Shown: positions 1,689-4,610 of the stretch, in pieces | Position numbering within the stretch: the first letter of the stretch is position 1 | Layout of the letters: each line of letters starts with the position of its first letter | Virus record (IMG/VR): IMGVR_UViG_3300001833_000005 | Location: 1-27,080 of that record | Source: a virus | Reading direction: 5' to 3' (one strand) | DNA: 27,080 nucleotides | The notes under the pieces: model-generated | What the model was told of the DNA's origin: nothing | Seen by the model: only the letters and a program-made list of their open reading frames with translations | Databases searched by the model: none | Made by a program: the position numbers and the translations under genes

Positions 1689-2279
1689 TTAAATATTATT
1701 TTCTCTTTTCCATGTAGTCCAAGTGATAGCTTGTAATATGTGAGGCTTGATGTCAACACGCTTTGCAGCCCTGACATAGACCTCTTGCATCTGTTTGTAT
1801 ACTTTCTTACTCATGTTTGTCTTGTCAGTAGTCAGACCTTGCCTGACACCTAGCGCAATGTTAAGGGCATGACCGTCTATAGTCACCTCGTCAAGCCCTC
1901 GTATGTTAGAATAGAATGACCTGATCTTTTGACCATTGAGCCTGTCAAGTATCTCATCATCACTAGTCAAGTTGTCCTCTAGTATGCTCCAAGCTTTTTG
2001 TTTCATAGTGTTGTAGCATGACACCTTGAAGTCATCCAAGTCATCACCTTCGACCCAAGCCCAACACATGCGTTCACAATCAGCAATGTTGCGCTCCCAT
2101 TTGTTGTTTGGTGACAATGCAGCCATCACACCTATGACAGTGTTCAGCTTGACACCTGACAGCCCTGATATGATTGAGCAGTATGTCTTGGCTTCATCAT
2201 ACCACTTGTAGCCGTTGGCAATGTCCTCAGTGGTTGCCCTACGGTAAACCTTGAGTATGTTTCTAACATGTTGTGTCAT
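1689..2279 (-). CDS. HhH-glycosylase-like phage protein (DUF7178-like), 196 aa
   Basis: Visible motifs are GVMAALSPNNKWERN (residues 50-64), NGQKIRSFYSNI (115-126), VTIDGHALNIALG (132-144) and LQAITWTTWKR (182-192). This pattern matches a phage family I know as DUF7178. It resembles the helix-hairpin-helix base-excision DNA glycosylase fold, in which a lysine-containing hairpin is followed by an Asp in a V-x-x-D-x-H context; Asp135 is the equivalent candidate. If active, it would act on modified or damaged bases, but enzymatic activity is inference and the family is officially uncharacterised. The start overlaps the upstream stop as ATGA with GAGGG upstream. It is the largest gene of the leftward operon. 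Confidence 0.65.
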   Translation of the reverse strand: MTQHVRNILKVYRRATTEDIANGYKWYDEAKTYCSIISGLSGVKLNTVIGVMAALSPNNKWERNIADCERMCWAWVEGDDLDDFKVSCYNTMKQKAWSILEDNLTSDDEILDRLNGQKIRSFYSNIRGLDEVTIDGHALNIALGVRQGLTTDKTNMSKKVYKQMQEVYVRAAKRVDIKPHILQAITWTTWKRENNI

Positions 2280-2503
2280 TCATCCATTCCCTCTAGTGCT
2301 AGTCCTATACTACGTTTATTGAATACTCCACCATCAGGTGTTCTTTTCTTGCCCCACCAGTTAGTGAGTATCTCAATAGCTCTAGTCATTCCCTCTCGCT
2401 GTACTAAGTCATAAGCTGTAATGTACAGGTTGTATTCGTTGTTTATCCATAATGATACGTTCCAGCTATTCCAGCTTGGGTATCCGTTATATTGTCTAGC
2501 CAT
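2276..2503 (-). CDS. YNGY...WNVSLW family small protein, 75 aa
   Basis: The protein starts MARQYNGYPSWNSWNVSLWI and continues N-N-E-Y. This matches a widespread short phage and bacterial protein family with the signature YNGW-x-N-x-x-T-W-N-V-x-L-W-x-x-N (DUF7249 as I remember it); its function is unknown. I chose the ATG at 2503 because AGGAGG lies six bases upstream; an in-frame TTG at 2518 overlaps that Shine-Dalgarno and is unlikely. The C-terminus (NWWGKKRTPDGGVFNKRSIGLALEGMDE) is basic then acidic. It is coupled by ATGA to the glycosylase-like gene. Confidence 0.75.
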   Translation of the reverse strand: MARQYNGYPSWNSWNVSLWINNEYNLYITAYDLVQREGMTRAIEILTNWWGKKRTPDGGVFNKRSIGLALEGMDE

Positions 2504-2615
2504 TGTTAGCCTCCTCAAGTAACTCTAAAATATCTTTTCTTGTCTCATCATCTAAATCAGTTTCTAATAGTTTAGTTAATAAATCAATGTTTTTATGATA
2601 TTCTAATATTTCCAT
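2496..2615 (-). CDS. first gene of the leftward operon, 39-aa acidic helical protein
   Basis: The start is MEILEYHKNIDLLTKLLETD, with AAAGGAG seven bases before the ATG, one of the best ribosome-binding sites in the operon. The protein is Leu- and Glu-rich, consistent with a single amphipathic helix or small helical hairpin. Its end overlaps the start of the next gene by eight bases. It is the promoter-proximal gene, about 20 bases from the predicted -10 box. The function is unknown. Confidence 0.65.
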   Translation of the reverse strand: MEILEYHKNIDLLTKLLETDLDDETRKDILELLEEANNG

Positions 2616-2635
2616 GTCTTTCTCCTTTATGTATT

Positions 2636-2665
2636 TAGTAAGACACAGCAACAACACAGTGTCAA
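2636..2665 (-). promoter_or_regulatory. sigma70-like promoter of the leftward operon
   Basis: On the minus strand TTGACA (2665-2660) is followed after 18 bases by TTACTA (2641-2636), 20 bases before the first ATG. The -35 is perfect and the -10 is weak. The promoter overlaps one arm of an inverted repeat (2642-2655), a natural place for a regulator. Confidence 0.5.
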
Positions 2666-2705
2666 TACAAAGTTTAGGTTGGCCTAAAATAGTCGCTGCT
2701 GTGTC
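2642..2705. repeat. nested inverted repeats at the leftward promoter
   Basis: The outer arms are GACACAGCAACAAC (2642-2655) and GTCGCTGCTGTGTC (2692-2705), which pair in 12 of 14 positions including nine consecutive bases. Between them is a second perfect dyad, TTTAGG-TTGG-CCTAAA (2673-2688). The -35 box of the leftward promoter lies between the arms. This could be an operator pair, or a cruciform element used in replication. Confidence 0.55.
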
Positions 2706-3076
2706 CAGTAAATATATAAAAATGTAACATAATTAAACAGTAGGTTAGCAGCTTTTCACTGGTTATGAGTTAGTCAACTCTCTTAGCAATCTTAGTGGCA
2801 TCCACATTTATTGATTGCGTGTCTTATTGACTGGGCTTGTAGTGTATTCTCACTTCCACGCCTATGTGCTATTGCTGTATATGTGTTTCTCTTTGTATCG
2901 TATCAGTTATCTTTCGTTAAAGTGTTTGTTGTTGTGTTTAGTCTTTCAGTTTGTATTTAGTTAGTCAAGTATTTTATTTAGTCTTTAGTCTTTTAGTATG
3001 TAGGACTAGATTGCACCTACGGAGCTTGGATCAATCAATGCTCTGGATCAAGGCCAAAAGGCTCCCCGTCTGCTAG
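2706..3076. other. non-coding part of the control region
   Basis: No convincing reading frame with a ribosome-binding site was found on either strand. The stretch holds a small dyad GAGTT-AGTC-AACTC (2767-2780), the TTTAGT motif array at 2937-2998 and, at its right end, a more GC-rich block (3001-3076) that can fold. In that block ACTAG (3005-3009) can pair with CTAGT (3073-3077). ACGGAGC (3019-3025) can pair with GCTCC..GT (3061-3069, two-base bulge), and GGCC-AAAA-GGCT forms a small hairpin. It precedes a rightward terminator, so it may be the body of a small RNA. Confidence 0.5.
2937..2998. repeat. TTTAGT motif array
   Basis: TTTAGTC occurs at 2937, 2977 and 2984, with variants TTTAGTT at 2956, GTTAGTC at 2960 and TTTAGTA at 2992: six related hexamer cores in 62 bases with irregular spacing. 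The same core occurs in reverse orientation (ACTAAAG) at 3633-3657. The T-rich background raises the chance rate, so protein binding is inference. Confidence 0.4.
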
Positions 3077-3134
3077 TTGACTTTCCGTCATAGCTATACC
3101 AAAGCATAGCTAAAAGAGAAGGTCAAGTTTTTTT
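3077..3134 (+). terminator. rightward intrinsic terminator
   Basis: TTGACTTTC (3077-3085) pairs with GAAGGTCAA (3118-3126) over nine positions with one G-U. An inner stem TAGCTAT/ATAGCTA (3091-3097/3106-3112) encloses an eight-base loop. The stem is followed on the plus strand by G and seven T (3128-3134). No plus-strand gene lies upstream, so it ends either an unannotated small RNA or antisense transcription. It also lies just after the stop of the leftward 48-residue gene. Confidence 0.6.
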
Positions 3135-3279
3135 ACCAGTTTTTTATTGTTCTTTCTACTCTATCGTATCCCCAAGATATAGGAACCATTGCGTTTTTAC
3201 CGTCACTTGCTTCTATATGATAGCAACCCATTAATTGCGATATAGAAAATGTTATATTGTTGTGTTCTATTGTTTTCAT
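3133..3279 (-). CDS. small hypothetical protein, 48 aa
   Basis: The protein starts MKTIEHNNITFSISQLMGCY and ends WGYDRVERTIKNW. I chose the ATG at 3279, where purine-rich GAAAGAGA lies upstream. The frame stays open to a TTG at 3336, but the added 19 residues (Val/Ser/Thr-rich) have no supporting ribosome-binding site. Short beta-strand and helix pattern; family unknown. It stands alone in the control region, about 500 bases upstream of the main leftward operon, and its stop codon touches the T-run of the opposite-strand terminator. Confidence 0.5.
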   Translation of the reverse strand: MKTIEHNNITFSISQLMGCYHIEASDGKNAMVPISWGYDRVERTIKNW

Positions 3280-3479
3280 TTTTTTCTCTTTCGTTGTTGT
3301 TGACACCATTAAGCATGAAACCACAACATAACGCAATAGATATTTTCAACTATTTTATAAGTTATTGATTTTAAACAAAACCTTTTTTACTGTTTCATGT
3401 TTTGTTCGTTAGTGTTCCATTTGGTTAGTGATTCGTTTACGTTTTGTTCTAATAGTTCTTTTAATTGGATATATGAACC

Positions 3480-3520
3480 TGCGCGTGTATGCGCGTGCGC
3501 GTAACGTGCGCGTGTACGTA
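3480..3520. repeat. 41-bp alternating purine-pyrimidine tract (Z-DNA-prone)
   Basis: Every base from 3480 to 3520 alternates pyrimidine and purine except for one phase break at 3503-3504, and most steps are CG, GC, GT or TG. TGCGCGTGTA occurs at 3480-3489 and 3507-3516; CGTGCGCGT occurs at 3494-3502 and 3505-3513. It is the only GC-rich patch in an AT-rich non-coding stretch. Such tracts readily adopt Z-DNA under negative supercoiling. Confidence 0.7.
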
Positions 3521-3614
3521 GGGAAAAACGTCAGATATTTTGTAAGATATATGACACAAAGGATAACACATTACATTGTCAATAAAATCAGTGGTTTAGC
3601 TTTGGTGTAGCGTT

Positions 3615-3624
3615 TGTGATCACA
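3615..3624. promoter_or_regulatory. TGTGATCACA palindrome, copy 1
   Basis: A perfect 10-bp palindrome in the context TTTGTGATCACATTT. It lies just before a TATACT box at 3630-3635. The half-sites TGTGA/TCACA resemble CRP/FNR half-sites but abut directly, without the six-base spacer that CRP needs. Confidence 0.65.
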
Positions 3625-3632
3625 TTTCCTAT

Positions 3633-3657
3633 ACTAAAGCACTAAAGCTTACTAAAG
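3633..3657. repeat. three ACTAAAG direct repeats
   Basis: ACTAAAG occurs at 3633-3639, 3641-3647 and 3651-3657, between palindrome copies 1 and 2. Weaker relatives (CACTAAA at 3774 and CACTAAG at 3785) follow. It is the reverse complement of the CTTTAGT cores in the 2937-2998 array. Confidence 0.5.
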
Positions 3658-3666
3658 TTATCCATT

Positions 3667-3676
3667 TGTGATCACA
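3667..3676. promoter_or_regulatory. TGTGATCACA palindrome, copy 2
   Basis: A second perfect copy in the context ATTTGTGATCACATTA, 52 bases after copy 1. Confidence 0.65.
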
Positions 3677-3700
3677 TTACAGGCCGACGGGTAAAACTTT

Positions 3701-3710
3701 TGTGATCACA
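3701..3710. promoter_or_regulatory. TGTGATCACA palindrome, copy 3
   Basis: A third perfect copy, extended to the 14-bp palindrome TTTGTGATCACAAA (3699-3712), 34 bases after copy 2. Three identical palindromes within 96 bases of non-coding DNA strongly suggest an operator set or replication iterons. Confidence 0.7.
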
Positions 3711-3793
3711 AAGGGTAGGCACAAGGGGGTTTGGGGCATCCGCATATATGTACAATGTGACAAAAAATTATCTCACTAAAATTTCACTAAGGC

Positions 3794-3832
3794 AAAAAAA
3801 ATAGGCCCACCCAGTATTTACCTGAGTGAGCC
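3794..3832 (-). terminator. leftward intrinsic terminator
   Basis: Read on the minus strand, GGCTCACTCAG pairs with CTGGGTGGGCC over all eleven positions (two G-U pairs) around the loop GTAAATA. It is followed by TA and eight T. On the plus strand the same stem has two C/A mismatches, so the element is clearly oriented leftward. No leftward gene lies upstream of it in the window. Confidence 0.8.
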
Positions 3833-3931
3833 AGAGGAGAAAACGAAAGTGTCCTTAGGATAAGCTATAGACAACTAATTAATAATAATTATAATTATAT
3901 ATACATATACACTATAGCAGCCCCAAGGGAT
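3794..3931 (-). ncRNA. candidate leftward small RNA, about 138 nt
   Basis: A perfect-consensus sigma70 promoter (3937-3965, minus) and a strong intrinsic terminator (3794-3832, minus) bracket about 138 bases with no usable reading frame; the only ATG, near 3903, is followed within three codons by a stop. The predicted RNA begins near 3931. It contains an inverted repeat, GCTATAG/CTATAGC on the RNA strand (3918-3912 and 3870-3864), closing an AU-rich loop, then a short UCCUAAGGA element, a CU-rich single-stranded stretch and the terminator stem. That layout fits a regulatory small RNA, possibly Hfq-type with its U-tail. The target is unknown. It is divergent from the late operon. Confidence 0.6.
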
Positions 3932-3936
3932 AATTT

Positions 3937-3965
3937 ATTATACCACTATTTTACACAGTTGTCAA
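3937..3965 (-). promoter_or_regulatory. perfect-consensus sigma70 promoter, leftward
   Basis: On the minus strand TTGACA (3965-3960), a 17-base spacer and TATAAT (3942-3937): both boxes and the spacing match the sigma70 consensus exactly. The predicted start is near 3931. It points away from the late genes and toward the leftward terminator at 3794-3832. Confidence 0.8.
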
Positions 3966-4013
3966 GCATAAAATGCAAAAAATAAAAAATATTTAAAAAT
4001 GTTGTAAAAGTGC

Positions 4014-4042
4014 TTGACAAACAAAACGAATCATGTTAAGAT
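4014..4042 (+). promoter_or_regulatory. sigma70-like promoter of the late rightward operon
   Basis: TTGACA (4014-4019), a 17-base spacer and TAAGAT (4037-4042), with a predicted start near 4049. This is 31 bases before the small-terminase ATG at 4080 and explains why the upstream part of that open frame should not be counted as protein. It lies about 50 bases from the divergent perfect-consensus promoter. Confidence 0.6.
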
Positions 4043-4079
4043 TCGAATCAGTTGTATTGCAAAAGAGGATTTATACTAT

Positions 4080-4610
4080 ATGCCATTATTTAAAATGAGC
4101 CAACTAAAGGGTCCGAATGGCAAGTGTAGAACTAAAAGTTTATTCTATGAATTGTCATACTACGACACCACTGACGTTATCTTCACAACAAAAGAACATG
4201 ACATAACAGTCAAAGATAAACTTTACGTGTCCTTACAACAGTTATTCGTAAGTATGGTTCCAAACGATCCGACTGAGTATGAGTTTGCTCAGGCAGTTTT
4301 TGGTTCTTGGGATGTATGGAAAACTATATCAGAAGCTCCACAAGTAAAACCTTACGTAAACAACTGGCGCAACGAAGTAGTTGTCAAAGTTAAATCACAA
4401 GCTATTCAAGCTATAGCTGAAGAGATGAGATCTAACGGAAGAAGTTCTTTCTCTGCAGCTAAACTTCTATTGGACAAAGGCTGGTTAGATAATGAGACAG
4501 CCTCACAAGCTAAGAAGAAGTTAAAAGCTAAAGAACAAGAAGAAGAGAATAAACAAGCATTGTCACTCCTACAAGACGATGCCCAACGATTAGGATTAAA
4601 GGTAAACTAG
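4080..4610 (+). CDS. terminase small subunit (DNA packaging), 176 aa
   Basis: The protein recognises concatemeric phage DNA and recruits the large terminase. The central part (LYVSLQQLFVSMVPNDPTEYEFAQAVFGSWDVWKTI, about residues 48-83) and the following PYVNNWRNEVVVKVKSQAIQAI and FSAAKLLLDKGW segments match the pattern I associate with small terminases of marine podoviruses: a helical DNA-binding region, an oligomerisation helix, and a charged Lys/Glu-rich tail (AKKKLKAKEQEEENK). I chose the ATG at 4080, ten bases after AGAGGA; the frame is open to a TTG at 4014 but a promoter occupies that stretch. It is unusual that the large subunit is separated from it by about 7 kb of fibre genes. Confidence 0.65.
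   Translation: MPLFKMSQLKGPNGKCRTKSLFYELSYYDTTDVIFTTKEHDITVKDKLYVSLQQLFVSMVPNDPTEYEFAQAVFGSWDVWKTISEAPQVKPYVNNWRNEVVVKVKSQAIQAIAEEMRSNGRSSFSAAKLLLDKGWLDNETASQAKKKLKAKEQEEENKQALSLLQDDAQRLGLKVN

Follow-up and report, generated by a model that had tools for sequence, protein, structure and literature searches.

What is the function of three identical palindromes that lie in the control region of a phage genome? The window considered here is the whole stretch of 27,080 nucleotides in IMG/VR virus record IMGVR_UViG_3300001833_000005, and the palindromes (boxes) sit in the gap that separates its leftward early genes from its rightward structural genes. The initial annotation assigned them to a dimeric regulator other than CRP/FNR, encoded by the phage or by its host, or to a replication initiator. 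The features on which the argument depends are as follows.

1689 to 2279, minus strand: leftward early-side gene, DUF7178 (PF23802).
2276 to 2518, minus strand: leftward early-side gene, DUF7249 (PF23907).
3613 to 3624, plus strand: box 1, TTTGTGATCACA, with the core palindrome at 3615-3624; conserved in the alignment of relatives.
3665 to 3676, plus strand: box 2, TTTGTGATCACA, with the core at 3667-3676, 52 bp after box 1.
3699 to 3712, no strand assigned: box 3, the 14-bp palindrome TTTGTGATCACAAA, with the core at 3701-3710, 34 bp after box 2.
3749 to 3773, plus strand: conserved element TGTACAAT...ATTATCT, in which TACAAT (3751-3756) is a possible -10.
4014 to 4042, plus strand: sigma-70-like promoter TTGACA-17-TAAGAT (10 of 12 matches), directly before the first structural-side gene.
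4080 to 4610, plus strand: first gene of the rightward structural arm, 176 aa, phrog_8035, function unknown.

The rightward genes lead to a terminase of 511 aa, which matches a T7-type terminase below its cut-off, and include a portal with 83% identity to that of phage CRP-5. Because of the early/late gene layout, the terminase, and the CRP-5-like portal, the window is, on sequence grounds, a fragment of a cobavirus-like marine phage (Zobellviridae). Isolated cobavirus relatives infect Rhodobacteraceae, and the host of the window phage is presumably a member of the same family. Note that genes were called by a simple longest-ORF script, and that counts of gene orientation are therefore rough.

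A search of the whole window found exact copies of TGTGATCACA at 3615-3624, 3667-3676, and 3701-3710, and no fourth copy anywhere in the 27,080 bases. The three perfect palindromes described initially are indeed identical, the third does reach 14 bp, and TTTGTGATCACA is common to all of them. A genome-wide count, proposed earlier as a check, gives three copies in the control region and none elsewhere in the window, whereas shuffled sequences contained 0.07 copies on average and one at most, and none of 100 shuffles reached three. Copies with two mismatches show no excess (13 found, 18.7 expected), and the box signal therefore consists of exact copies only. ORFs of 25-28 aa overlap the boxes, and there is no support for any of them.

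The half-sites TGTGA and TCACA are shared with CRP/FNR boxes, and the initial annotation was right that they lack the spacer; CRP sites have a 6-bp spacer, whereas the box here has none, and a CRP/FNR box was ruled out for this reason. The initial annotation also suggested that Dam methylation of the central GATC could modulate binding. The tetranucleotide occurs 83 times in the window against 97.9 expected, so there is no depletion, and the count is uninformative on methylation. The usual methylase of alphaproteobacteria is CcrM, which reads GANTC, a sequence absent from the box.

The control region contains other signals as well. A promoter on the minus strand with 12 of 12 consensus matches, TTGACA-17-TATAAT (3965-3937), is directed at a hairpin that resembles a terminator (3832-3804). 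The RNA of about 135 nt between them (window 3795-3965) has a predicted fold better than shuffles (z -4.1); such a transcript might serve as a small RNA, or as a leader through which the early operon is attenuated. An Rfam search of 2600-4200 gave nothing credible; two eukaryotic miRNA matches lay far below their gathering scores and were taken as chance.

Conservation in close relatives was the second check proposed. We collected 15 viral loci that carry a relative of the first late gene; three of them (L004, L012, and L014) have too little upstream sequence to score. Eleven loci extend for 941 bp or more upstream of the late-gene homologue, and 10 of these contain one to three exact boxes, although several of the 15 loci are near-identical and the box-bearing relatives are therefore not independent. 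The exception, L010, has no exact box despite its at least 941 bp of upstream sequence, and L006 has two boxes within 406 bp. In an alignment of nine sequences, box 1 is invariant or nearly so, and box 2 is present in the six close sequences and missing in the more distant L009, L011, and L013. Conservation thus holds among close relatives, but the exact box occurs in none of the seven named cobavirus isolates (CRP-4, CRP-5, ICBM1-3, P12053L, and SIO1). Another palindrome, TGTTATA(C/G)TATAACA, was seen in box-free cobavirus isolates (control regions L141, L142, L143, L145, and L146); in ICBM1 it is apparently inside the terminal-repeat region.

The same box arrays also occur in the control regions of phages from three groups that are unrelated to one another: cobavirus-like, HMO-2011-type, and CRP-6-like. 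A scan for two boxes spaced 30-60 bp apart matched at least 120 viral stretches, compared with one for a reversed control pattern and five for the centre-swapped TGTGTACACA. Further scans found 28 stretches with spacings of 10-29 bp and at least 119 with 61-90 bp; the spacing ranges, all measured start to start, were scanned separately, so that phase is comparable within each and densities are not comparable between them. At an identity threshold of 80%, the 212 loci among the matches listed reduce to 82 distinct control regions: 50 HMO-2011-type, 15 cobavirus-like, 6 mixed, and 11 neither, where class is assigned by the best blastp scores against six cobavirus and four HMO-2011-type genomes (of the 212 loci, 21 matched neither class and 14 were mixed). 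The third phage type is represented by one set of unclassified contigs, whose terminase shares 83.6% identity with the CRP-6 terminase; boxes are absent from CRP-6 itself. The sequence of CRP-7 was covered to base 50,000 of 58,106.

The 120 adjacent spacings in the 82 control regions are phased at about 10.5 bp (R=0.657), and remain so without the unclassified loci (R=0.653, n=100). They cluster at about 20-24, 30-34, 39-45, 52-54, 64-65, and 73-77 bp. Copy number per control region is mostly two or three, spacing is variable, and only five boxes were found outside clusters in 787,426 bases.

The boxes are widespread yet far from universal. Among the Rhodobacteraceae HMO-2011-type isolates examined, a set without CRP-212 and CRP-235, five of nine have exact boxes: CRP-1, CRP-13, and CRP-345 have two each, CRP-2 has one, and CRP-603 has four, in each case within 450 bp of the record end and nowhere else in the genome. 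Boxes are absent from CRP-3, CRP-9, CRP-207, CRP-738, HMO-2011 (whose host is SAR116), and two pelagiphages. When HMO-type control regions were instead picked by an adjacent gene, without regard to the box, 48 of 80 loci had at least 1300 bp upstream, and a box is present in 15 of these 48 regions. Together with the isolates (0/7 and 5/9), this set indicates that the boxes are dispensable. A second palindrome, TAGTTnAACTA or the longer TAGTTTAAnnTTAAACTA, is repeated in 14 of 48 HMO-type control regions surveyed; among the HMO-2011-type contigs bearing it (L030, L057, L109, L264, L270, L273, L286, and L312), some also have boxes, and certain host genomes contain one or two copies of its core GTTTAACGTTAAAC.

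Which protein would bind such a box? A scan of bacterial genomes returned 50 loci, many of them alphaproteobacterial, and at least 11 of the 50 carry GntR-family regulators; all three of those tested have GntR and FCD domains. A tandem pair of boxes 19-23 bp apart is present in 94 of the 149 genomes of the family of G002, compared with none for the control. In four loci (L155, L218, L221, and L222) a box pair is followed by sucC with mdh nearby, and in L155, from Rhodobacteraceae, a second pair precedes sdhC. In L218, L219, L220, and L222, the neighbours of the GntR gene itself include lpd, sucC, mdh, or sdh genes. A GntR/FCD gene is found in nine of ten box-holding genomes and in 89 of 100 genomes of the host family. 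An exact box lies upstream of this gene in eight of nine loci from box-holding genomes, and upstream of the AkgR-like gene in 19 of the 30 best-scoring family loci, the other 11 having none; one locus belongs to both sets. The boxes lie 10-70 bp before the akgR-like genes.

These neighbourhoods point to AkgR. This regulator is reported to be the protein RSP_0981 and to activate TCA genes directly (Imam 2015). The palindromic core GTGATCAC is present in the window boxes. In the accessible text of one report, GTGATCAC is the motif identified among the binding sites of AkgR, a GntR activator of Rhodobacter sphaeroides (PMC6365646), and the accessible text of another predicts that the GntR regulator RSP_0981 controls sucCD, sdh, and the alpha-ketoglutarate dehydrogenase genes (PMC4344238). 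Since motif, gene neighbourhood, and targets fit together, AkgR is the best candidate binder of the boxes.

A different host GntR/FCD regulator with the same operator might take its place, and other GntR regulators do seem, from their sites, to share an operator with the AkgR-like one. In three loci from Oceanospirillaceae (L153, L172, and L192), copies of the box lie beside both a GntR/FCD gene and a gene for a class III aminotransferase. Given such paralogues in Oceanospirillum and Marinobacterium, close to boxes and to aminotransferase genes, another regulator could bind, and G002 and G005 each contain a second, weaker homologue. However, the AkgR-like protein is the most widespread box-linked regulator found in Rhodobacteraceae, and we give the substitution perhaps one chance in ten.

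The binder might also be a repressor or activator encoded by the phage itself, as yet unrecognised and mimicking the host operator, given that boxes occur in many phages and that many small phage genes are of unknown function. An HMM built from 15 AkgR-like and related sequences gave no match at E values up to 10 among 25,774 six-frame frames of phages, most of whose contigs are fragments; moreover, the box is common to three groups with different gene sets, which makes a phage-encoded binder improbable. The proposal of a dimeric regulator other than CRP/FNR is thus still the best reading of the boxes, with the evidence favouring its host half, whereas no phage-encoded GntR protein was found in the phage sequences examined.

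With AkgR as the candidate binder, the position of the boxes relative to promoter-like elements becomes relevant. In the window, the TGTACAAT element follows the centre of box 3 at a distance of 45.5 bp, and TATGTACAAT is nearly invariant in the nine aligned sequences. Taking TACAAT as the -10 would place the centre of box 3 near -57, where activators that touch the polymerase from upstream typically sit. A TGTACA(A/T)T element is found beyond the boxes in 10 of the 15 cobavirus-like clusters (five are without it), and the nearest box centre precedes it by 44.5-51.5 bp in nine of the 10 and by 105.5 bp in the remaining one; it occurs on none of 14 early (opposite) sides and in no shuffled sequence. 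The HMO-type counts and the opposite-side tests use the 62 of the 82 regions that could be oriented (48 HMO-type or mixed, 14 cobavirus-like). An ATCAGT-type element is present in 24 of the 48 and absent from 24, with its distance to the outermost box being 55.5-58.5 bp in 15 cases, 24.5 bp in five, and other values in four; it occurs on one of 48 opposite sides and in an average of 3.4 of 48 shuffled regions. In two unrelated phage groups, the distance between the nearest box and a conserved element on the structural-gene side is thus nearly fixed, a geometry to be read as suggestive, since both elements were picked after inspecting these same sequences and the start site is a predicted one.

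The TGTACAAT element, which has no recognisable -35, is a putative promoter. Counts of generic -10 and -35 motifs in the neighbourhood of the boxes, made on the same oriented regions, gave totals near those of shuffles and are useful just for their late-side peak; similarly, the sigma-70 scan found 7 sites in total against 6.9 in shuffles. The promoter-like site TTGACA-17-TAAGAT is kept in close relatives. In most cobavirus-like control regions, the stretch from the last box to TGTACAAT contains two G-tracts (3725-3736 in the window).

We conclude, with a probability of roughly 0.66, that the three palindromes are operators for host AkgR, the GntR/FCD regulator of Rhodobacteraceae TCA-cycle genes, and that the outermost box helps transcription toward the structural genes. 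In an infected cell, each box would be occupied by one dimer of host AkgR, and the dimers would lie on roughly one face of the DNA because the boxes are near a whole number of turns apart; the outermost dimer, about 46 bp before TGTACAAT, would then help RNA polymerase to start toward the structural genes. Judging from this geometry, AkgR would probably act as an activator of a phage promoter, and phage expression may in this way follow the metabolic state of the host.

The opposite sign of control is unlikely, at about one chance in seven: AkgR would repress or hold back phage transcription, or act on the leftward early promoter, and lysis would be delayed until host metabolism changes. It is in line with the CtrA case in alphaproteobacterial phages, which the accessible text reads as lytic deferment (PMC9437464), and the location of boxes 10-70 bp before akgR-like genes suggests autoregulation. 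Against it, the phage box lies upstream of the conserved element rather than over it, at a near-fixed distance, and AkgR is called an activator in the accessible part of the printed report (PMC6365646).

The phasing and the near-fixed distance to the element, which point to promoter control, also make it very improbable that the boxes serve for titration, in which the replicating phage genome would soak up AkgR and shift expression of the host TCA cycle, even though several boxes per genome in a phage multiplying its DNA might have this effect.

Last, repeats in the main intergenic region could be iterons of a replication origin or a packaging element. In two contigs of unclassified phage type (L133, 3905-4029, and L263, 4049-4196), iteron-like arrays of six and seven boxes are spaced at exactly 23 bp. 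In the window, replication iterons were rejected as a candidate, the spacings of 52 and 34 being irregular and no initiator family being found in a scan of ten window proteins encoded close to the boxes. Elsewhere, copies are mostly two or three at variable spacing, and isolates of the same phage groups do without them; we regard this explanation as barely credible. The replication initiator of the initial annotation is not supported, given the same box at sucC and other metabolic genes and at the GntR gene in bacteria, and the near-fixed distance to a promoter-like element in phages.

More tentatively, and at somewhat less than even odds, at least three unrelated lineages of marine Rhodobacteraceae phages may have independently put a structural-side promoter under the host regulator of the TCA cycle, so that the lytic programme reads the central carbon state, much as has been proposed for NtcA in cyanophages, and the phased arrays provide an adjustable gain. 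If phage promoters do answer to AkgR, the outcome of infection would depend on the host carbon state via a named protein and a 10-bp site. Roseobacter phages are abundant in the ocean according to published abstracts.

Among known systems, the AkgR (RSP_0981) regulon of R. sphaeroides is the closest. As far as the accessible texts go, its core GTGATCAC is the same (PMC6365646), and its predicted sucCD and sdh targets match the box pairs found here before sucC and sdhC (PMC4344238); the GntR and FCD domains are likewise shared by the box-linked host genes. However, the boxes of that regulon serve host genes, whereas the boxes described here sit in phages. The open-licence literature searched contained nothing tying AkgR or the box palindrome to phages, and no case of phages using a TCA-cycle regulator, and the accessible portions of that on HMO-2011-type and RCA phages gave no mention of promoters.

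In alphaproteobacterial phages, clusters of CtrA sites are likewise dense host-regulator sites within one intergenic control region and in several lineages, as described in the accessible text (PMC9437464). CtrA is a cell-cycle regulator whose binding to phage sites and regulation were demonstrated by experiment (PMC9437464), whereas AkgR is a metabolic regulator and the case made here is drawn from sequence. Similarly, T4-like cyanophages with NtcA sites are marine phages proposed, in the part of the source available, to draw on a host regulator linked to 2-oxoglutarate metabolism (PMC3037559). That system differs in host, regulator family, and site; its genomes carry 1-16 sites each (PMC3037559), in contrast to the single phased cluster seen here. 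The use of host regulators by phages is thus already known from CtrA and NtcA, and AkgR is the new part.
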